This document shows, one piece after another, positions 2,387-19,144 of a DNA stretch of 45,027 nucleotides (position 1 is its first letter; the number at the start of each line of letters is the position of its first letter). Made by a program: the position numbers and the translations under genes. The stretch is from Acidiferrobacteraceae bacterium. Its GTDB lineage: Bacteria > Pseudomonadota > Gammaproteobacteria > Acidiferrobacterales > SZUA-150. Under the pieces are notes generated by a model. It made no database searches and was not told the DNA's origin. It was given only the letters and a program-made list of their open reading frames with translations. The stretch lies in assembly GCA_003228915.1 (NCBI GenBank), contig QIGL01000097.1, forward strand, positions 1-45,027, in the 5' to 3' direction.

Positions 2387-2444
2387 AACAAGCCCCAAAA
2401 AAAATATGATCTACAATAAACAACAATAATTGAACATATCAGAA

Positions 2445-3251
2445 TCAGTTGTCGACATGAACCCAGTCATCTGATCGGGCGAAAATCCATGAGATGCCCC
2501 CGCCCAGCAAAAAGGCATATCGTTGCTCTACTAGCGGACTATCTTCATTAATAGCATCGCCGATATAATCATACCTTAAATAAAAACCTGTCCAGACTTT
2601 GGAAAATCGCTTGCTCAGTGACATGGCAAAACGAACACCGTTATAACCGCCTTTGGCATCATAAGCAGACCGATTTGCGCTCGCAAATTGAGGATCGACC
2701 CGGTAATAATAATCATTAAACCTGTTGTTGCCAAATACAGGGCCGAATGAGGACCCAAACGACCAGCCATCGCCCGGCCCAATATTATTTGCATGAAAGT
2801 TTAGATAGGGCGCGAACACCCATCCTTGTTGTTCAATGCTTTTGAAGTCTGTTGAAAAAACTGCCCGCACCGGGAATCGCAAGGACCAGACATATTGTCG
2901 CTCCCAGGTTTCGCTGAGCGAATAATACAGGGAAGGTCCGACCTCAAAAATCGGGTCGAGATCCGGCATGCCCTGTCGTACCCCTTCATCTCTGCTTTTA
3001 ACAGGGGGCCCGAGATTGCCACTAAATTCTATTCGCCATTTTTCGGACTTGAATAATTTTCCATGGGCACCGTTTCTGTCCAGCTCTAAATAATCACCGT
3101 TGTAGACCAGGTAGGGAATTGGAAATATGTAATAGTTGCGTTCAGAGGAGCCAATATAATCGTTAATGGTGACGCCGCTGACCCCGACACCAACTTCCCA
3201 AACCGGTTCTTTTCCGGCAAATACAGGCTCATTTAATCCTAATAACAGCAA
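2445..3251 (-). CDS. MipA/OmpV family outer-membrane protein (start codon problem)
   Basis: The mature part begins GKEPVWEVGVGVSGVTINDYIG and has the pattern of MipA/OmpV proteins: aromatic-rich amphipathic strands, a PIPYLVYNGDYLELDRNG block, and a C-terminal GGGISWIF strand. MipA in E. coli scaffolds a murein hydrolase and synthase; OmpV is a porin-like member. It should be an outer-membrane beta-barrel of about 270 residues. The first usable start is TTG 3251, which cuts through the signal peptide. Upstream the same frame reads KIHARLKASIVLCLLLLG, then NEPVFA, back to a stop at 3318-3320, with no ATG, GTG or TTG before 3251. Either an ATT start near 3293 or 3287 is used, or a one-base frameshift separates it from ATG 3307. 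Family assignment good, start unresolved. Confidence 0.8.
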   Translation of the reverse strand: MLLLGLNEPVFAGKEPVWEVGVGVSGVTINDYIGSSERNYYIFPIPYLVYNGDYLELDRNGAHGKLFKSEKWRIEFSGNLGPPVKSRDEGVRQGMPDLDPIFEVGPSLYYSLSETWERQYVWSLRFPVRAVFSTDFKSIEQQGWVFAPYLNFHANNIGPGDGWSFGSSFGPVFGNNRFNDYYYRVDPQFASANRSAYDAKGGYNGVRFAMSLSKRFSKVWTGFYLRYDYIGDAINEDSPLVEQRYAFLLGGGISWIFARSDDWVHVDN

Positions 3252-3446
3252 ACATAATACTATGCTGGCTTTTAACCGGGCATGAATTTTAATTGCCGTA
3301 ACCCCATATTGTGTAAATCATATTCGCTGAATTAAGTCCGGATTAAATCATTCGGATTGAATCCTCACTAGTTTAACCTTTTTTCAGTTTAACTGTGGAA
3401 ATCCCGGAATATCAGGGATTGCATCCAGGCTGAACTGTGTTTCAAT

Positions 3447-4352
3447 ATGCCCGTGACCCGACCAATATCCAATCTAACCCTGCCAGCCATTATCTGGTTC
3501 ATTTTTACAGTCATACTATTTAATAGTGTCGTTTCCTTTGCCGAAGAAAAACAAACAGAGCAAATCGGCCTGCTTTGGAAAATTAACAAACCAGGCGCTG
3601 AACCCAGCTACCTGTTTGGCACGATTCACCTGAATGATGAACGGGTAAAAAATCTCGCACCGCCCGTTAAATCTGCTTTCGATAATTCCAGAAGCTTCAC
3701 AATGGAAATGATAACAGACACAAGCGGCCTGGTAGTGTTGAGCAGGATGATGTTTCTCGCTGAGGGCTTGTCACTGAAAAAAATAACGGGAGAAAAACTG
3801 TACCGGCAAACTGTAGAGGTACTGCTCAAACGAGGCATGACAACCGAGAACCTTGATCGCATCAAACCCTGGGTCATTATCATGATGCTGAGCACACCAA
3901 AATCCAAGTCGGGCTTATTCCTTGATATGGATCTTTATGCGAAAGCAGTCTCGGCCAGGAAACCCGCATACGGCCTCGAGACCATGGCCGAACAACTGGC
4001 GCCATTTGACGATATGCCGCTCAAAGACCAGGTGGCACTACTAAAAGACTCCCTGCAGGCAAGTGACCAGCAGGATGCGCAACTGGAAGAAATTACCCAG
4101 GCATACCTGAGCCGAAATTTGACCAAACTCCTGACCATCTCTGACTCATACCAGACACAAGCCGGCGCGGCTTATGACCGGCTCATGACCCAGCTCATCA
4201 ATGATCGTAACCTGCGTATGCAACGACGTATGCAAAAACGCATAACGGAAGGCAACGCCTTTATTGCGGTCGGCGCCCTGCACCTGCCCGGCAAAGATGG
4301 GTTAATTAACTTATTTCAAGAACAAGGCTATCGCGTTACTTCAGTTTACTAA
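3447..4352 (+). CDS. TraB/GumN family protein, exported
   Basis: The 301-residue product starts with a long hydrophobic segment (residues 10-31) ending VVSFAEE, which looks like a signal peptide or membrane anchor, so it acts outside the cytoplasm. The TraB/GumN domain is marked by LFGTIHLND (residues 56-64) and a C-terminal VGALHLPGKDGL with GALH at 276-279. These are the two conserved GTIH and GALH motifs proposed to form a metal-dependent active site by similarity to TIKI-type proteases. Biochemical roles of bacterial members are poorly established, so protease activity is inference only. It is transcribed away from the MipA-like gene and is followed by a repeat element. Confidence 0.85.
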   Translation: MPVTRPISNLTLPAIIWFIFTVILFNSVVSFAEEKQTEQIGLLWKINKPGAEPSYLFGTIHLNDERVKNLAPPVKSAFDNSRSFTMEMITDTSGLVVLSRMMFLAEGLSLKKITGEKLYRQTVEVLLKRGMTTENLDRIKPWVIIMMLSTPKSKSGLFLDMDLYAKAVSARKPAYGLETMAEQLAPFDDMPLKDQVALLKDSLQASDQQDAQLEEITQAYLSRNLTKLLTISDSYQTQAGAAYDRLMTQLINDRNLRMQRRMQKRITEGNAFIAVGALHLPGKDGLINLFQEQGYRVTSVY

Positions 4353-11712: not shown

Positions 11713-11856
11713 GACTTTTCTCTTGTTTCTGGCACTATTCCCAGTCCAAAAATACCATTTGTCCGGCCCGTAATCACGAATATCGCCTACAGGCTGCAAG
11801 CCTGGATAGCCTATCTATACTGGTTGCAAGGGAGAATATTTTAAAAGGAAGACAAC

Positions 11857-12328: not shown

Positions 12329-13222
12329 TCACTTCCCATCAGCAGACAAATGCTTGCGAATAAACTTTTCAGTTCTTTGCAGTGAATCTTTGGTTGCCAT
12401 GTCATCGGCCAGGGTACGAATCCGGGGCGGCCGAAAATCAAATCCACGACCGACGCCGGGGTAAATAATCAGCTGCGGTTTTCTGCCCTTCTCCTTCAAA
12501 GTTTCTACGCCAGCCAGTATCGGGCGAAACCGCTGATACTGCTCATGTTCGCCAAAAAATATTAATGCCGGAACTTTTAAATCTTCAATTTCAGGTGCGT
12601 ACTGGTAAACCTGCAATGGTTCAGATTCATTCGGGTCTTGCCAATGGGGGTAATAGGCAACATAACAGGAAACTTTCTTGATTTGTCTTTTGTATGTGAC
12701 TAATGCCTTTAAGGTCATGTAGCCACCCCGGGTATGAGCAACAGTACAGGCCTTGTTACCGATGATATTTGGCAGTTTTAAGAGCGTATCAATACCCTTG
12801 GCAACATCTTTTTCGACCTCATAATCATGATTGAATGGATAAGGATTAATGAATCTGCCGCTCCAGATATCTGGCGCCAATACCACGAACCCCCTGGCGG
12901 CGAGTCGTCTTGGTACCAGCAGTGTCAGGTCATCAAGGCCGCGCCGGCCATGCTGAAATAATACAGGTAAATATTTTCCCGGTTTTTTCGGGCGAAAAAC
13001 ATAAGCTGGAATTTCAGAATCACCACTCTTGTAGGTAATTTCAGTCATGACCACGTCATAGTTGGTCGGTTGTTCTATTTTTCCGTTTTCCCACCAGTCA
13101 TCATTCCACCACAGCTTTTCCTTATCTTGTGGGAATTCAGTTTTTGTCCAGGGCTGATGGATAGCATAAACGAGCTGGGCAGGCATGAATGCCACAAGCA
13201 ACAATATAATAATTTTTTTCAT
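12329..13222 (-). CDS. Secreted dienelactone-hydrolase-like protein with substituted catalytic triad
   Basis: I chose ATG 13222 (MKKIIILLLVAFMPAQLVYA), preceded by AAGGGAGAAATC; an earlier GTG at 13240 is less likely. Residues 1-20 are a signal peptide cleaved after LVYA. The rest is an alpha/beta-hydrolase fold of dienelactone-hydrolase type: VLFQHGRRGLDDL (oxyanion loop), GFVVLAPDIWSG, then VAHTRGGYMT, FFGEHEQYQ and YPGVGRGFDF. The three catalytic positions, normally Cys/Ser, Asp and His, are T164, E227 and R259. I checked the codons (ACC, GAG, CGT). Hydrolytic activity by the usual mechanism is therefore doubtful. It is convergent with the WYL-like gene and has no obvious partner. Confidence 0.87.
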   Translation of the reverse strand: MKKIIILLLVAFMPAQLVYAIHQPWTKTEFPQDKEKLWWNDDWWENGKIEQPTNYDVVMTEITYKSGDSEIPAYVFRPKKPGKYLPVLFQHGRRGLDDLTLLVPRRLAARGFVVLAPDIWSGRFINPYPFNHDYEVEKDVAKGIDTLLKLPNIIGNKACTVAHTRGGYMTLKALVTYKRQIKKVSCYVAYYPHWQDPNESEPLQVYQYAPEIEDLKVPALIFFGEHEQYQRFRPILAGVETLKEKGRKPQLIIYPGVGRGFDFRPPRIRTLADDMATKDSLQRTEKFIRKHLSADGK

Positions 13223-13309
13223 GATTTCTCCCTTGTGCACGATAATACCTTGTATGGTTAAATTTCCCCAATATTCTATCTCAATGTACGGTGAAGTCGT
13301 AACTTTTTA

Positions 13310-13367
13310 GCGGAATTAACGGGCGGCTAACAGCTCAGAATGAGTTTCTTTTGCCGCCGACTCCTTT
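13310..13367. repeat. Dyad repeat, downstream copy flanking the GNAT gene
   Basis: The segment starts GCGGAATTAACGGGCGGCT, contains CAGCTCAGAATGAGTTTCTT, and ends GCCGCCGACTCC. GGCGGC (13322-13327) and GCCGCC (13353-13358) form an inverted repeat. A related copy in the same orientation lies at 13881-13935, with the acetyltransferase gene between them. Confidence 0.7.
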
Positions 13368-13383
13368 TAATACTTTTATTTGG

Positions 13384-13845
13384 TTACTTTACTGCTAATT
13401 GGTAAGTCGTAAATTTATTGTTATGAAGTTCAGTTTCAGACACATTCTCAGAAATTTTTTGCAAGAACTTATAACCAGGCCGAGTATGAAGAAAATGAAT
13501 GAAGACCTCATCATGGCCCAGCTCTTTTGCCCAACACATAATGTCATGGAATACACGCCTCCCTAAGCCCCAGAATTTATTATCAATGACAATTGCAATC
13601 TCGTATTTTCCGTCTTCAATTTGTATGCCACACCAACCGGCTAATTGATTTTTGTACATAATGCCTCTAACTCTACAACCCTGAGTGGTATCAATTTCTA
13701 TCTTGGAATTTATCCAATCCTTTACGGTGCCTGCATTAAATAACTCATGCTCGATTAAGTGCTTTCTAATTTTTGGGCTATTTAGTAATGATATAAAATA
13801 ATCCGGGTTTACTTCGCTAAGTTTTACATATTTCAGGTTGTTCAT
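13384..13845 (-). CDS. GNAT family N-acetyltransferase
   Basis: The 153-residue protein has the single-domain GNAT layout: N-terminal helix region, GIMYKNQLAGWCGIQIEDGKYE (strands 2-3), strand 4 EIAIVIDNKFWG, then the acetyl-CoA pyrophosphate loop WGLGRRVF in place of the canonical Q/R-x-x-G-x-G/A, and a C-terminal GYKFLQKI. It resembles RimJ/RimL-like members acting on protein N-termini or small amines; the substrate is unknown. The gene is bracketed by two directly repeated dyad elements (13310-13367 and 13881-13935), suggesting acquisition or movement as a unit. The start is ATG 13845 and the stop lies in AT-rich DNA. Confidence 0.85.
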   Translation of the reverse strand: MNNLKYVKLSEVNPDYFISLLNSPKIRKHLIEHELFNAGTVKDWINSKIEIDTTQGCRVRGIMYKNQLAGWCGIQIEDGKYEIAIVIDNKFWGLGRRVFHDIMCWAKELGHDEVFIHFLHTRPGYKFLQKISENVSETELHNNKFTTYQLAVK

Positions 13846-13880
13846 ATTAGCGCCCAGATTACTGATAATTACTATCCGTA

Positions 13881-13935
13881 AGAATTAATGGGGTCGTGAC
13901 AGTTAAGAATGAGTTTTATTTGTCACCGACCTCTT
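13881..13935. repeat. Dyad repeat, upstream copy flanking the GNAT gene
   Basis: The copy runs AGAATTAATGGGGTCGTGAC, AGTTAAGAATGAGTTTTATT, TGTCACCGACCTC. GGTCGTGACA (13892-13901) pairs with TGTCACCGACC (13921-13931). Order and orientation match the copy at 13310-13367 (GAATTAA, then a stem arm, then GAATGAGTTT, then the second arm). A weaker match, CTGACTATTAAGCATGAGTT, occurs at 20441-20460. Confidence 0.7.
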
Positions 13936-14060
13936 ATGTTGCCGACACCTCTATTATTGAGTCTCGCAGGGTATTGTCATTCTGGGGATACAACGATTTG
14001 GTATATTCACATGCATGAAGTGTGAGCAACAAACGAAAAAACATCAACTCGAATCATTTA

Positions 14061-14360
14061 TTACGCGTGGTTTATGTGGAGGTTTTTAAAGACCGACTCT
14101 GGATCTGCCTGGACAAGCCTTAACAATACTTTTGCGGGGCCTGTTGGATGACGATGTCCTTGTTCCCAATTCTGGAGAGTCCGCATACTTACGCCGATTA
14201 AAACTGCAAACTTCGATTGGGTAAAACCGATATGTTCTCGAATCGCTTTAACATCAGGCTCATCAAATTCAAACTCACGCGAAGCTTTAAGTTCTCCACG
14301 CATGATTTTTCCAGCTTCCCGGACACTATCTAGTAACTCATTGAATTTCTCATCATTCAT
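14061..14360 (-). CDS. HigA2/NadS-type antitoxin, XRE-family HTH
   Basis: The product is 99 residues from ATG 14360 (MNDEKFNELLDSVREAGKIM); an upstream in-frame start at 14381 lies within the toxin gene and is unnecessary. Residues 36-80 are a Cro/XRE helix-turn-helix: IREHIGFTQSKFAVLIGVSM, then RTLQNWEQGHRHPTGPAK, the standard recognition-helix pattern of this antitoxin group. The start overlaps the end of the toxin gene by 8 nt, so the two are translationally coupled. Toxin-first order is typical of higBA. The protein should neutralise the toxin and repress the shared promoter at 14684-14711. Confidence 0.9.
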   Translation of the reverse strand: MNDEKFNELLDSVREAGKIMRGELKASREFEFDEPDVKAIREHIGFTQSKFAVLIGVSMRTLQNWEQGHRHPTGPAKVLLRLVQADPESVFKNLHINHA

Positions 14361-14676
14361 TTTCAAACTCCAGCACAACAATTTTTTGAAGTGTCTTTAA
14401 CTGTTCTTTTGTTAAGTCATCTACTTCATTCTTGGCATAGGCAAATAACATATAAATTTGATCTAAATTTGCTGCCCAATAGTAGATAAAACGTGATCCA
14501 CCTCGCTTACCTCGACCGCTACCACGCCAGCGAATTTTGCGTATTCCACCACTCCCTGAGATTATATTACCTGTATCGGGTTGGTCGATAATCATTGCCT
14601 GAAACTCACGATAATCTTCATCGGTCATTAACTTATTGATTAATTTAGTGAAAATATGAGTTTCTACAATGACCAT
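14353..14676 (-). CDS. HigB2/RelE-type toxin
   Basis: This 107-residue basic protein belongs to the RelE/HigB superfamily. It shows the HigB2-type blocks TDEDYREFQAMI, DTGNIISGSGGIRKIRW, GKRGGSRFIYYW and IYMLFAYAKNEVDDLTKEQ. Family members are mRNA interferases that act on the ribosome. The closest architecture I recall is the higBA2 pair of the Vibrio cholerae superintegron, which is interesting because an integron-type cassette lies 1.9 kb away. The start is ATG 14676, immediately downstream of a strong promoter with an embedded palindrome. No catalytic residue is obviously missing. Confidence 0.9.
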   Translation of the reverse strand: MVIVETHIFTKLINKLMTDEDYREFQAMIIDQPDTGNIISGSGGIRKIRWRGSGRGKRGGSRFIYYWAANLDQIYMLFAYAKNEVDDLTKEQLKTLQKIVVLEFENE

Positions 14677-14683
14677 TTATCTT

Positions 14684-14711
14684 AGTATACGTCATTGACG
14701 TAGTTTGTCAA
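14684..14711 (-). promoter_or_regulatory. Promoter of the higBA-type operon with embedded operator
   Basis: Reading toward the toxin, a perfect -35 TTGACA (14706-14711) is separated by 16 nt from TATACT (14684-14689). The 15-bp palindrome TACGTCATTGACGTA at 14688-14702 fills most of the spacer and touches the -10. That is where an XRE-type antitoxin dimer would be expected to bind for autorepression. Operator function is inferred from position and symmetry. Confidence 0.8.
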
Positions 14712-14722
14712 TAAAGTAGGTG

Positions 14723-14813
14723 GCGTGTGCTGTGCGCACGCTACATTTATCCAGTACGCGCAAAATTTTAAAGCTCTGGATTCCGGGGCTGCACTTTGTT
14801 TAGCCCGGAATGA
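14723..14813. repeat. Two short palindromic repeats
   Basis: GCGTGTGCTGTGCGCACGC (14723-14741) is a compact hairpin. TTCCGGGGCT (14781-14790) pairs with AGCCCGGAA (14802-14810) and belongs to the GTCATTCCGG/GGAATGAC family also seen at 9373 and in the MITE-like elements. Confidence 0.6.
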
Positions 14814-14842
14814 CAGTGTTTTTGCATATTTTAGCGCCATTC

Positions 14843-14892
14843 GGGTCAGAAAATGTTTTATCCAATATTAGAAAAAAACTGTTCTCTGCTCC
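14843..14892. repeat. REP-like palindromic unit, copy A
   Basis: The unit reads GGGTCAGAAAATG, TCCAATATTAG, CTGTTCTCTGCTCC. The ends GGGTCAGAAAA and TTCTCTGCTCC are imperfectly complementary. Copy B at 15973-16026 shares GTCAG, AATATTAG and TGTTCTCTG in the same order and spacing. Both copies lie just beyond the stop codon of a minus-strand gene. Confidence 0.7.
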
Positions 14893-14925
14893 AGGTTTTT
14901 TCGCAATCATATTACTTTCACGCCA

Positions 14926-15822
14926 TCAATTTTTTTCAACACGATTTCTGCCAAGCTTCTTGGCATTGTAGAGCGCTTTATCTGCTTCATTTTTCAACTT
15001 GTCGATCGTTTCTGATCGACTGGGACGTATTGTCACAACACCGACGCTAACTGTCAGTATATCGGAAACTATTGATCCCTTGTGCTCGATTTTTCTCTGG
15101 GCAACATCTTGATGCAACTTTTCCGCAATCGAAACAGCTTCATTATGACCTGTTTCAGGCAATATAAGGGCGAACTCCTCTCCTCCAAACCGGGCAAGCT
15201 TGTCAGTGGAGCGCCTTACACTATGTTTCATTATACTTGCTGTTTCAGTCAATACCCTGTCACCAAAATGATGCCCATAGGTGTCGTTGTATTCCTTGAA
15301 ATGATCGATATCAATATAGATAAGCGATAAGAGCGCATCATTCCTGATGTGTCGTTCCCACTCATAATTGAGTACGCTTTCCATGTAACGGCGGTTATAG
15401 AGCCCGGTTAACTCATCGACTTCGCTAAGATGGAGCAGGTGCTTGTTTGTCTGCTCCAGTTCTAATGTCAGTTGCTCGAGTTTTTTCTGACTGGCATGGA
15501 GCTCTGTCACGTCCCGCGCAAGTGCCAGGGAGCCGATGACTTCGCCTTTATCATCTTTCACATCATGGGAGTTCCATGAAAGAATGCGACTGCTGCCATC
15601 CTTGCACCGAATTGTTGTCTCAAAGTCCATGAGCACTTCTCCCTGGTTGATGACATCAAGTGCTTTTGCATATATGGTGTTGCGATATTCTTCGTCAGGG
15701 TAGAGCAATTCCCACACATCACTGCTTCCCAACACCTCCTCCTCGCTATAACCACTAATCTTTTCTGCCGCCTTGTTCCATATAACCACCTTGGCATCCT
15801 TGTCCAACACATTCAGCCACAT
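14926..15822 (-). CDS. PAS-GGDEF diguanylate cyclase
   Basis: The protein has an N-terminal PAS domain (residues 1-108; WNKAAEKISGYSEEEVLG is the classic core), a short coiled coil (109-131), and a GGDEF domain (132-298). The active-site motif G213-G-E-E-F217 is intact and an RSTD motif at 204-207, five residues before it, is a canonical inhibitory I-site. It should make cyclic di-GMP in response to a signal sensed by PAS and be product-inhibited. ATG 15822 falls inside the expected start of the PAS fold. Upstream in frame is FINPHNTA, without a start codon before a stop. ATG 15866 opens another frame, MPEKDFYSLIH, so a one-base frameshift is possible. Confidence 0.9.
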   Translation of the reverse strand: MWLNVLDKDAKVVIWNKAAEKISGYSEEEVLGSSDVWELLYPDEEYRNTIYAKALDVINQGEVLMDFETTIRCKDGSSRILSWNSHDVKDDKGEVIGSLALARDVTELHASQKKLEQLTLELEQTNKHLLHLSEVDELTGLYNRRYMESVLNYEWERHIRNDALLSLIYIDIDHFKEYNDTYGHHFGDRVLTETASIMKHSVRRSTDKLARFGGEEFALILPETGHNEAVSIAEKLHQDVAQRKIEHKGSIVSDILTVSVGVVTIRPSRSETIDKLKNEADKALYNAKKLGRNRVEKN

Positions 15823-15972
15823 GGCGGTGTTGTGTGGATTAATGAATAAAAGTCTTTTTCTGGCATGTTATCTGTCTCGGCTCTGACTCAACTGAGTATA
15901 GTCGAAGGATATGGCTGTAAACAGGATATTGAGCAGGACAAACGACCGTAGTGGGTCGTTTTCTGTAAAAAT

Positions 15973-16026
15973 GGTGTCAGGGAAAAGTTTTTTTAAATAT
16001 TAGTAATAATTGTTCTCTGAGCCGGG
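15973..16026. repeat. REP-like palindromic unit, copy B
   Basis: The unit reads GGTGTCAGGGAAAAG, AAATATTAGTAATAATTG, TTCTCTGAGCCGGG. The left arm GTCAGGGAAAA and right arm TTGTTCTCTGA are imperfect inverted repeats. It follows the stop codon of the nuclease-like gene by about 30 bp. A diverged third relative (AATTATAATTGTTCTCTAA, then CTCGGGC) lies at 19882-19907. Confidence 0.7.
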
Positions 16027-16054
16027 TTTTTCGAGTTTTTATCCAGGTTTTATA

Positions 16055-16498
16055 TTATGCTTTGCATATTTTAGTGATGAAATTGTATGCATTTTCATAC
16101 TTTTCATAACCACCAGAAATGTTCTTTGGGTTAAAATTCGTGCCTGTTTTACCTTGTATATTCTTTTGCACAATATTATTAGGAAAAACATAAATTTTTC
16201 TTTTGGTTTTTTCTTTATATTTTATTTTATTATTTTCAATTGTACATGGGTGATATATAAATATTAGGACGTCGTATTCTTCACCTTTTATATTGGCTTT
16301 GAACTGTGACCGGCTGTGTTTGACTTCAACTCTACAACCATGCTTTAAATCGTGACTATTTACTATTATGTCAAAGTTTGCATTGTTACGAGGTGATTGG
16401 CTTACAAGTAAACCAGTATTAGCAACAATTTCACCCATTGCTAAATATTCAGCACCATTTGCTAGTGATACATTAATTCTTTTTTCGATGTTCTTCAT
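16055..16498 (-). CDS. Putative PD-(D/E)XK nuclease-like protein
   Basis: The 147-residue product, in AT-rich DNA, begins MKNIEKRINVSLANGAEYLA. It shows the arrangement of small restriction-endonuclease-like folds: an N-terminal helix (EYLAMGEIVANTG), a strand with D43 (NFDIIVN), and E58-V-K60 (CRVEVKHS). This D-Xn-E-X-K pattern is the metal-binding active site of PD-(D/E)XK nucleases. No methyltransferase or specificity subunit is nearby. Its start lies 22 nt after the attC crossover at 16521, the usual distance for the first gene of an integron cassette, and its stop overlaps GCATAAT, one mismatch from the expected R'' box. Nuclease function is inferred from the motif alone. Confidence 0.72.
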   Translation of the reverse strand: MKNIEKRINVSLANGAEYLAMGEIVANTGLLVSQSPRNNANFDIIVNSHDLKHGCRVEVKHSRSQFKANIKGEEYDVLIFIYHPCTIENNKIKYKEKTKRKIYVFPNNIVQKNIQGKTGTNFNPKNISGGYEKYENAYNFITKICKA

Positions 16499-16514
16499 GG
16501 TTTTCTTTTTTTAA

Positions 16515-16603
16515 GCATAACGCTTTAATAACCTGACGTTTTTTCTTGCGGCCTGCCTTTTAGGCCGTAAGAAATAATGGTCAGGTTGATTTACTTGTTA
16601 GCA
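16515..16603 (-). other. attC recombination site of an integron gene cassette
   Basis: On the minus strand this 89-bp site begins with R'' TGCTAAC (16597-16603) and ends with R' GTTATGC (16515-16521). Between them AACCTGAC/GTCAGGTT (outer stem) and TTCTTACGGCCT paired with AGGCCGCAAGAA (one mismatch) make a long hairpin, as in folded attC substrates of IntI. The decisive point is that R'' TGCTAAC is the exact complement of GTTAGCA at 17297-17303, the other end of the putative cassette, as it must be in the circular form. No intI gene is in the window. Confidence 0.78.
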
Positions 16604-16624
16604 GTTATTTATTTATACAGCAAC

Positions 16625-17281
16625 TCATTTAACTTTTTTATATTTGAGAAATATGCCTTCATTGCCACCTGCATGCAAATCCTTATTTTTGTCTAGAAAA
16701 AAATATTCTCCATGAGAGTTACCTCCCTTCTCAACTAGCTTTATACCAGAACCTGATTTTTTTTCCGTCATCTCTTCATTGGAGCTGCTTCCGTCTTTAT
16801 ATTTTGTTTCAAGATATAGCTTTCCATCCTTACGGCGAATAGTGATAGTTGCGCCTACATAAGGACGATCATCCATCCAAATACCTACTGCATCAGCAGA
16901 ATTGTTCTTTGCCTGTTGGACTGCTTTTGTTTCTTCTTCCAGTGTAAGACCGAGTATTTCAATCTTTAGCTTAGGGTTAAAGTGTGATGTTGCCCAAGCA
17001 CCTGAACCTACCTTCATATTTGGCAAATAATACGCGATGAATGTTCTTTCATATTTTTTCTTTTCTGATTTTTTTAGTTTTTCTGAAATTGAGCGTAAAT
17101 CTTGCTTTGAGACTTTCTTATTTAACCTGACATCAATACTACGCTTATAATTTTTATATTCATTTTCTGAAATTACTGTGTAAGTGTAATTTTTCTCATT
17201 TCCAGCTTGTGTTACGCCAAAAAAAGTCATTAACAAAGATATTGCTAGGATATGTGTAAATCTAATTTGAATTCGGTTCAT
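16625..17281 (-). CDS. Secreted protein of unknown function carried on a gene cassette
   Basis: The 218-residue product begins with a signal peptide (THILAISLLMTFFGVTQA, cleavage after TQA). The mature region is Lys/Glu-rich with a helical stretch (SISEKLKKSEKKKYERTF), then beta-rich segments FIAYYLPNMKVGSGAWATSH and AVGIWMDDRPYVGATITIRR, and a C-terminal GGNSHGEYFFLD. I do not recognise a domain. Composition is more AT-rich than the flanking malic enzyme gene. It is preceded by TAGGAG, 6 nt from the ATG, and starts 21 nt inside the cassette boundary at 17302/17303. The stop lies 22 nt before the attC. This is the standard one-gene integron cassette layout, so acquisition by cassette insertion is likely. 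Confidence 0.82.
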   Translation of the reverse strand: MNRIQIRFTHILAISLLMTFFGVTQAGNEKNYTYTVISENEYKNYKRSIDVRLNKKVSKQDLRSISEKLKKSEKKKYERTFIAYYLPNMKVGSGAWATSHFNPKLKIEILGLTLEEETKAVQQAKNNSADAVGIWMDDRPYVGATITIRRKDGKLYLETKYKDGSSSNEEMTEKKSGSGIKLVEKGGNSHGEYFFLDKNKDLHAGGNEGIFLKYKKVK

Positions 17282-17296
17282 TTTTTCTCCTATTAC

Positions 17297-17369
17297 TGCT
17301 AACAGTTAAGTATACGGCAGGTGCGCCAAGAGAACCCAACCCACCAGGTTATTATATACTTAAGTCTAT
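17297..17369 (-). other. Upstream cassette boundary with possible degenerate attC
   Basis: GTTAGCA (minus strand, 17303 to 17297) marks the start of the cassette. Next to it TTAAGTATA (17306-17314) and TATACTTAA (17355-17363) form a perfect 9-bp inverted repeat around a 40-bp centre. An attC of a preceding cassette would have this layout, but the outer box reads GATAGAC rather than an AAC-ending R'', so it may be degenerate, an attI remnant, or unrelated. Confidence 0.45.
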
Positions 17370-17470
17370 CTTTTTATTAATTTTATTACTCGTATATTCG
17401 TAGTTATCAATACAAGCCAGTCGCCTTACGCTAGGTATTTGCACCAATATTGTGCGCTGGCAATTGTTAT

Positions 17471-19102
17471 CTAATAACGGGGATCGTACATGAGTCTTTT
17501 TATTGATTTTTGTAAATCTGATTTTGATTGATCTTTGGGGTGTGGTTTTTGTGCCAGGTTTTGTTCGTAGGCTTTTTCGGCAACGGCAACGGCGATCACC
17601 AGGGAGATGGCGCGAATGTCTTGCAGGGGTGGATATATAACGCCTTGTTCCAGTTGCTCCTGTTTCACCATGCCGGCCAGGGCTGCGGCTGCGGCCAGGA
17701 ACATTTCGTCGGTAATACGACTGGTTTCACAGGCAATGGCACCCAAGCCAACACCGGGAAAGATATAAGCATTGTTTCCCTGTCCGGGTTGAAACGTTTT
17801 ACCTTCATAGCTGACATCTTCCGATGGACTGCCACTGGCAAAAATTACCCGGCCACCGGTCCAGTCATAGGCCTGTTGGGCGGTACACTCGGCATGGGAG
17901 GACGGGTTGGACAAGGCAAAGATGGCCGGTCGTTCGTTGATGTCTGCCATCAGTCGAACGGCCGCTTCCGTAAACGTCCCCTGGACGCCGGTGGCACCGA
18001 TCAATAGTTGGGGCTTGTATAATTTAATGGCCTCAACAAAAGACATGGCAGGCTGATCTTTTGCATAAGGCAGGATATGTTCGGCAAGTTCCTGGCGCGA
18101 TTTGATAACCAGGCCATTTTCATCAACAAACCATAATTGTGACAAGGCGGCGTCGTTGCTCAAACCGGCATCACAGAATGCCTTATGAATTAAATTTGCC
18201 ATGCCCGTGGCAGCCGAACCGGCACCTAGAAACATAATACGCAAGCCGGTGAATTCGTGACCGGAAATACGAATCGAGGAATAAATACCCGCCAACACCA
18301 TGGCGGCCGTGCCCTGGATGTCGTCATTAAAACACAATACCCGGTCACGGTAGGTATTGAGCAAGGCATAGGCATTAGGCGTCAGGAAATCTTCAAACTG
18401 GATCACTGCCTTCGGGAAAATATCCTGAACGGTGGTAACAAATTCTTCCACGAGCTCAGTATATTCAGCGCCTGTCAGCCGGGCTTGTTTGACACCCAGG
18501 TAAAGCGGATCATTACGCAATTCCTGGTTATTGGTGCCGACATCAAGCATCACGGGTAAACACTGCTCCGGGTAAATGCCGGCACCGGCGGTGTACAGGG
18601 CCAGTTTACCAATGGGAATACCCATGCCGTTGGCACCAAGATCACCGAGACCCAGGATACGCTGGCCATCGGTAACCACAATCATGCGCACATCTTTTTC
18701 TGGCCAGTTACACAGTATCTCGTGCATGTGGCCACGATCAGCGGGGGTAATATAAAAACCCCGAGGCTCCCGAAAAATATGCGCATACTCCAGGCAGGCC
18801 TGGCCGACGGTGGGCGTATAAATGATGGGCATGAGTTCATTTATATGCTCGATTAATAATTGGTAATATAATCGTTCGTTACGACCTTGCAAGGCAAACA
18901 GAAAAATATAACGCTCGATGTCGTAGGCCTTGCGGCGCATGCTCTCCAACGCCCGTTGTATCTGGCTTGCCTGGTTGGAGGCACCGGCAGGCAGTAGTCC
19001 CCTTAACCCGTATTTATCACGTTCGGCTTCACTAAAAGCAGAGCCTTTGTTTAATTTTGGGTTATTTAAAACGTCGAACCCGACAGGATTTTTTTTCGAC
19101 AT
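17471..19102 (-). CDS. maeA: NAD-dependent malic enzyme
   Basis: Malic enzyme oxidatively decarboxylates malate to pyruvate. I chose ATG 19102 (MSKKNPVGFDVLNNP), preceded by GAAGGGCAGT; a TTG at 19114 is weaker. The 543 residues match the long NAD-type (SfcA) family: YTPTVGQACLEYAHIF with Y95, ITPADRGHM, GDLGANGMGIPIGK, ELRNDPLYLG, QFEDFLTPNAY with the metal-binding Glu-Asp, and the Rossmann motif FLGAGSAATGMA near 301. FALSNPSSHAECT and FASGSPSEDV complete the fold. Cofactor preference for NAD is inferred from similarity. The gene is flanked by accessory DNA on both sides: vapBC upstream and the cassette downstream. Confidence 0.95.
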   Translation of the reverse strand: MSKKNPVGFDVLNNPKLNKGSAFSEAERDKYGLRGLLPAGASNQASQIQRALESMRRKAYDIERYIFLFALQGRNERLYYQLLIEHINELMPIIYTPTVGQACLEYAHIFREPRGFYITPADRGHMHEILCNWPEKDVRMIVVTDGQRILGLGDLGANGMGIPIGKLALYTAGAGIYPEQCLPVMLDVGTNNQELRNDPLYLGVKQARLTGAEYTELVEEFVTTVQDIFPKAVIQFEDFLTPNAYALLNTYRDRVLCFNDDIQGTAAMVLAGIYSSIRISGHEFTGLRIMFLGAGSAATGMANLIHKAFCDAGLSNDAALSQLWFVDENGLVIKSRQELAEHILPYAKDQPAMSFVEAIKLYKPQLLIGATGVQGTFTEAAVRLMADINERPAIFALSNPSSHAECTAQQAYDWTGGRVIFASGSPSEDVSYEGKTFQPGQGNNAYIFPGVGLGAIACETSRITDEMFLAAAAALAGMVKQEQLEQGVIYPPLQDIRAISLVIAVAVAEKAYEQNLAQKPHPKDQSKSDLQKSIKRLMYDPRY

Positions 19103-19144
19103 ACTGCCCTTCAAGCATTAATAATTAATTTCTTTTTAACAGCG

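Follow-up and report, generated by a model that had tools for sequence, protein, structure and literature searches.

The textbook integron has one attI site, adjoining its integrase gene intI, and the sedentary chromosomal form combines a G^TT crossover with attC sites built of R'', L'', L' and R' arms, cassettes that all point in one direction and arrays that differ between species. Cassettes are also found away from intI. For CALINs, in which cassettes with attC sites have no intI nearby, the published routes of origin are off-target insertion, the loss of intI and rearrangement (PMC8618304), and in Xanthomonas their positions are conserved between species, without an explanation through attI (PMC12444791). 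IntI is known to use attG sites in the chromosome (PMC12901181, PMC12444791), and in the Delta-attI cassettes of class 1 and class 2 integrons the cassette ends in a short attI fragment instead of an attC (PMC12901181). Detection of attI by IntegronFinder is limited to class 1 (PMC9024848).

The locus described here, in a stretch of 45,027 nucleotides (the window), has the crossover, attC arms, cassette direction and species-specific cargo of a sedentary chromosomal integron, but no intI lies in cis and attI is present in many paralogous copies per genome rather than one. It resembles a CALIN or single-attC element in having a cassette with attC and no intI nearby, but it starts with a recognisable attI paralogue. 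As in Delta-attI cassettes, attI lies away from its usual place and would be recombined by IntI, and copies within arrays of the sister species (contigs C9, C28 and C44) resemble such cassettes; here, however, attI heads chromosomal arrays directly after housekeeping genes, and the window cassette ends in a full attC with attI upstream. A cassette inserted at a chromosomal place away from intI also recalls attG sites, but the target is a 110-185 bp attI homologue and not a minimal GTT. CALINs, attG insertion and Delta-attI cassettes are already described; the dispersed orphan attI is the unusual part, and our literature search, partial in its coverage, found no description of orphan attI or of dispersed attI ports.

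The window cassette and its attI site

The features of the locus are as follows.

12329 to 13240, minus strand: dienelactone hydrolase family gene (Pfam DLH), conserved right anchor, 87% identical in the sister species
13231 to 17298, minus strand: variable interval, with nothing in common with the sister-species interval (BLASTN and TBLASTX between the loci)
16055 to 16498, minus strand: open reading frame of 147 aa, probable second cassette gene without its own attC, starting 16 nt after R'
16515 to 16603, minus strand: attC site, R'' TGCTAAC to R' GTTATGC, the sole attC model match in the window (E 2.5e-5)
16521 to 17302, minus strand: cassette 1, from the TT of the opening heptamer to the G of R', with the attC model match at its end
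16625 to 17281, minus strand: cassette gene for a 218-aa product with an apparent signal peptide, assigned to no known family by Pfam and NCBIfam searches
17299 to 17423, minus strand: orphan attI copy without an adjacent intI, its end at the crossover GTTAG (homology to the attI of contig C49; model R1)
17351 to 17380, minus strand: promoter-like TTAATA-18-TATAAT inside attI, reading into the cassette, candidate Pc (motif search)
17471 to 19114, minus strand: malic enzyme gene (Pfam malic/Malic_M), conserved left anchor with attI after its stop codon, DNA 84.5% identical in the sister species

Direct reading of the sequence gives TGCTAAC at 17297-17303 on the plus strand, that is, GTTAGCA on the minus strand. 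The 89-nt attC, read on the minus strand from 16603 to 16515, runs TGCTAAC AAGTAAA TCAACCTGACC ... GTCAGGTTATTAAAGC GTTATGC and has the arms R'' TGCTAAC, L'' TCAACCTGACC, L' GTCAGGTTA and R' GTTATGC. The opening heptamer GTTAGCA (17303-17297) is complementary to R'' (16603-16597), which fits the closure of a circle. Crossover and ATG are separated by a leader of 21 nt, as a preliminary description of this DNA had it, and the trailer from stop codon to R'' is likewise 21 nt, where that description counted 22. Folded as single-strand DNA, either strand of the site outperforms all 200 of its shuffles (z -5.1 and -5.7). Rfam at its gathering threshold gave no match for the site, and we therefore built a covariance model of our own (R2) from 30 aligned attC sites of integrons adjoining intact integrases, all in other genera; a heptamer-plus-stem scan, too loose for more (about 12 matches per 45 kb shuffled window), was used solely for collecting these training sites. 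Over the whole 45-kb window R2 gave a single match, at 16515-16603 on the minus strand, with 31.8 bits and E 2.5e-5. With R''/R' and L''/L' arms, a hairpin fold and a location at the 3' end of an open reading frame, the unit is confirmed as a genuine integron gene cassette with a self-matching attC, as had been proposed, and as a cassette it is ordinary.

The 218-aa product of the cassette gene had no Pfam or NCBIfam match above cut-off. Relatives at 28% and 23% are encoded on a Polaromonas and an Acinetobacter plasmid, and among 369 genomes of the class none was found outside its own genome. An AlphaFold model from the single sequence reached a pLDDT of 38 and was set aside. Sixteen nucleotides past R', where the next cassette gene would start, begins the 147-aa open reading frame, which the preliminary description had overlooked; R2 found no attC match downstream of it in the window at E<=5, and it is probably a second cassette gene whose own attC is missing. 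The remainder of the variable interval holds a GGDEF gene, a RelE/HTH pair and a GNAT gene. The PAS start of the GGDEF gene looks frameshifted (15750-15870, minus strand), the frame of an upstream ATG (MPEKDFYSLIHTTPP) stopping where the listed reading frame continues the PAS domain.

The left boundary of the cassette, which had also escaped notice, is an attI site. Positions 17412-17299 (minus strand) align over 114 bp at 79% with the stretch between intI and the first cassette on contig C49 of the same genome (L006 16857-16970), with a score of 111 against a shuffled maximum of 32; both sites end ...CCGTATACTYAACTGTTAG, and the homology stops at the crossover GTT. A sequence model of the attI family (R1) scored the window site at 99 bits (E 2.8e-28). 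Pairwise identity among 14 attI copies was 0.70 in the 25 bp before the crossover, 1.0 over GTTA, 0.42 over the next three bases and 0.31 beyond; because identity drops after GTTA, the family ends where IntI crosses over, as is required of attI. Promoter-like motifs were as frequent as expected in shuffled sequence, so the possible Pc is a candidate only. The window attI is among the more diverged of the 14 copies and may be inactive. A 12-bp match of the upstream flank to intI, noticed by eye, was rejected as an intI remnant when the flank aligned at chance level. Insertion of the whole unit as a precise cassette at the malic enzyme stop codon (GTTATTA) was not adopted, the left ends of other copies being variable; the left end shared by the window unit and contig C32 of the sister species is real.

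The absence of a nearby integrase, also noted earlier, holds for the whole window, which has no intI homology and thus no complete integron with intI in cis. A search of the rest of the genome (G000) found one integron integrase over the TIGR02249 cut-off, on contig C49. It scores 441 bits and retains the catalytic motifs, and it carries a 17-aa insertion in box II; the insertion is in frame, between RTV and ELLGHS and near the catalytic HxxR/H boxes (gene at L006 15769-16785), so that the only IntI of this genome may be damaged. The only integron integrase found in the sister genome (L046 7859-8850) belongs to another lineage, at about 47% identity, and is split by a frameshift. Both genomes of the genus are MAGs and could miss an intI. 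From the insertion and the frameshift, the integron system may be dying in this genus.

Conservation and dispersal of orphan attI copies

In the sister species (G001, an uncultured Acidiferrobacteraceae, contigs CAJVXY01) a malic enzyme gene is followed by an attI copy, an array with attC sites and a dienelactone hydrolase gene, the same flanks as in the window. R2 placed attC sites at L039 11336 and 13055 and a weaker one at 11828. At least two attC sites without integrase define a CALIN; the window has one, and this syntenic locus has two to three. By BLAST the two loci are 84.5% identical up to attI and 87% identical from the hydrolase onward, with nothing in common between. The malic enzyme site is a conserved orphan attI with changing cargo. 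The preliminary description had proposed a single integron-type cassette that might be sedentary, to be doubted if relatives showed the same flanks and no sign of an array. The opposite was found, since the sister-species flanks enclose a different cassette array; the cassette itself stands, and 'single sedentary' does not, as the cassette is the first behind an orphan attI in an interval that differs wholly between the species.

Two further observations concern these genomes. Both species have orthologous intergenic regions (L089 6720-6805 and L088 10935-11033) that resemble the attI model in its upstream part, with E of about 1e-6 to 1e-8, but contain no crossover core; these regions may represent a related promoter or a degenerate attI. 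The arrays of the sister species also contain, near attC sites and in both orientations, a repeat of about 50-65 bp with a GGGTCAGAGTGAAAACTC-like sequence, at the following places.

L039 10567-10628, 11413-11473 and 13140-13206: GGGTCAGAGTGAAAACTC-like repeat
L084 8344-8410 and 9230-9293: GGGTCAGAGTGAAAACTC-like repeat
L040 5771-5840: GGGTCAGAGTGAAAACTC-like repeat

Searching with R1 gave three strong attI copies in the window genome, including the intI-linked one on C49 and another on C71, and nine to ten in the sister genome (contigs C48, C32, C9 twice, C28, C36, C1, C17 and C44), with weaker matches elsewhere. R1 had no match in 55 other genomes of the order, and among 369 genomes of the class its matches were limited to the window genome and G057. 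A second conserved site lies directly behind the mnmE stop codon and is common to contig C17 of the sister species and to a contig binned as SZUA-177. This contig, QIFK01000049.1 (L063, assigned to Nitrosospira SZUA-177), carries the mnmE-attI junction of the sister species; it was probably misbinned or belongs to a relative of this genus. Some attI copies stand in mid-array, with attC sites or half attC sites upstream as well (L040 1681-1808 and 5835-5940; L041 7710-7836).

Dispersed copies are a general feature of the order. In G002, from another genus of the family, the attI next to intI can be aligned with the C49 site at a score of 70 (shuffled maximum 34) and has four further copies in the genome without intact intI, three of them followed by attC matches on the same strand. 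A joint search of 13 genomes with the attI regions from ten other intI loci gave extra copies in G002, G003, G004, G010, G015, G023, G026 and G036. Orphan copies with attC arrays are present in two closed isolate genomes (2,864,672 and 3,958,814 bp). We take G010 to be Sulfuricaulis limicola HA5 and G015 to be Sulfurifustis variabilis skN76. An attC on the same strand lies within 1.5 kb downstream of 20 of the 27 orphan copies, and within 4 kb downstream all attC matches share the strand of attI (46 same, 0 opposite). The seven other copies have no attC model match close downstream, and some of these have short context. Where a long gene lies upstream, the orphan copy mostly follows its stop codon by 130-290 bp and shares its direction. 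A tblastn search with eleven IntI proteins found no integrase beside the orphan copies, with traces at C71 and at C66 of G002 only. No larger mobile element surrounds the copies: different loci are homologous only within the attI segment, whose left end lies about 110-260 bp ahead of the crossover.

Identical cassettes are found in separate arrays. In the closed genome of S. limicola, whose IntI appears intact, cassettes of 405 and 628 bp occupy the first two positions behind the intI-linked attI and recur, 100% identical, as the fourth and sixth cassettes of an orphan-attI array 1.5 Mb away, at 1.98 Mb; identity starts and stops at GTT, the exact crossover ends. The two loci are given below.

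L052 (G010:C1), 2425-3451: identical cassettes in the intI array
L135 (G010:C1), 1977501-1979122: identical cassettes in the orphan-attI array

This identity shows exchange between the two arrays, in one direction or the other. Contigs C32 and C48 of the sister species end in the same 127 bp, starting GTTATGT, which stand behind attI on C32 and behind attC on C48. The shared-cassette junctions of both genomes are, by sequence, those that IntI makes. The first cassette at the SZUA-177 mnmE site matches one from another array of the sister species over 806 bp, at 82% identity, and this homology begins exactly at the TT after the crossover G.

Proposed origin and use of the dispersed sites

We consider it probable that dispersed orphan attI sites are served in trans by a single IntI and that the window cassette was inserted at one of them. 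This genome and its relatives have several attI copies scattered over the chromosome, most of them shortly beyond the 3' end of a gene and oriented as that gene is; these copies would act, or have acted, as extra ports for the IntI made at one locus. In trans, IntI would recombine the folded attC of free cassettes with the G^TT of any attI copy, and separate cassette arrays would thereby grow at fixed places. We infer from the sequences that IntI worked in trans at the window site, and any present activity there is to be read in the same way. The copies themselves would have spread by copying of the whole platform or of an attI module, followed by loss of intI.

Orphan attI copies could instead be the remains of whole integrons with intI, attI and cassettes, from which intI was deleted after the cassettes had been inserted in cis. 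Remnants of the 5' end of intI do lie in the right place and orientation on C71 of the window genome (score 82, shuffled maximum 44) and on C48 of the sister genome (94, maximum 37), and perhaps at C66 of G002 too (21 aa, 76%, E 0.001); some copies are therefore decayed whole platforms. But no such remnant was found at the window or at the malic enzyme locus of the sister species, where scores were at chance, nor at other orphan copies. In the LexA-box region, the orphan copies of G010 and G026 have changes in common that are missing from the intI-linked copy of G010, a pattern that suggests copying as orphans, and the identical cassettes in the intI and orphan arrays of G010 show exchange after separation. 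As the explanation of the locus we regard decay in cis as rather unlikely; it may still explain how some copies arose, and it does not conflict with their use in trans later on.

The other explanations fare worse than trans action on orphan attI sites. Given the use of attG sites by IntI, the cassette might have entered an ordinary stretch of chromosome offering no more than a minimal GTT core, but an attG site would not share the 110-185 bp attI homologue, which has further copies in the genome and stops at the crossover; this makes attG insertion very improbable for the window. Insertion of the attG type may apply to contig C78 of the window genome, where three good attC sites lie behind the rpe/gph/trpE region (L011 4200-6549) and no attI copy was recognised. 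That the heptamers and stem-loop are merely attC-like, in an ordinary chromosomal gene, is scarcely credible: isolated heptamer pairs with some stem are common under loose rules, at the shuffled-window frequency given above, but the attC model match is strong, attI stands at the other end, and the whole interval is replaced in the sister species. Equally hard to credit is an origin of the orphan copies in assembly errors or contamination. Arrays are cut off by the ends of several contigs, both genomes of the genus are drafts of many contigs, that of the sister species being a metagenome assembly, and QIFK01000049 is binned as Nitrosospira yet resembles this genus; against this, the malic-attI junction is identical in two separate assemblies, and the two closed isolate genomes carry orphan copies with attC arrays, which refutes an artefact for the phenomenon as such.

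More broadly, integrons of this order may be multi-port, with an attI module of about 60-190 bp, usually without intI, copied behind the 3' ends of many genes, kept across species and served by one trans-acting IntI that builds separate arrays; the same may hold for CALINs in general, whose nature as ports would have gone unnoticed because attI is not sought outside class 1. We would give this wider reading even odds. If one integrase serves many attI sites, cassette capture would be spread over the chromosome, several cassettes would each be first in line behind an attI of their own, with its promoter if there is one, and the integrase locus could decay while the ports persist. This would also explain integrase-less arrays at conserved places, the point raised for Xanthomonas, and it predicts for every genome that the heads of CALINs would carry paralogues of the local attI.
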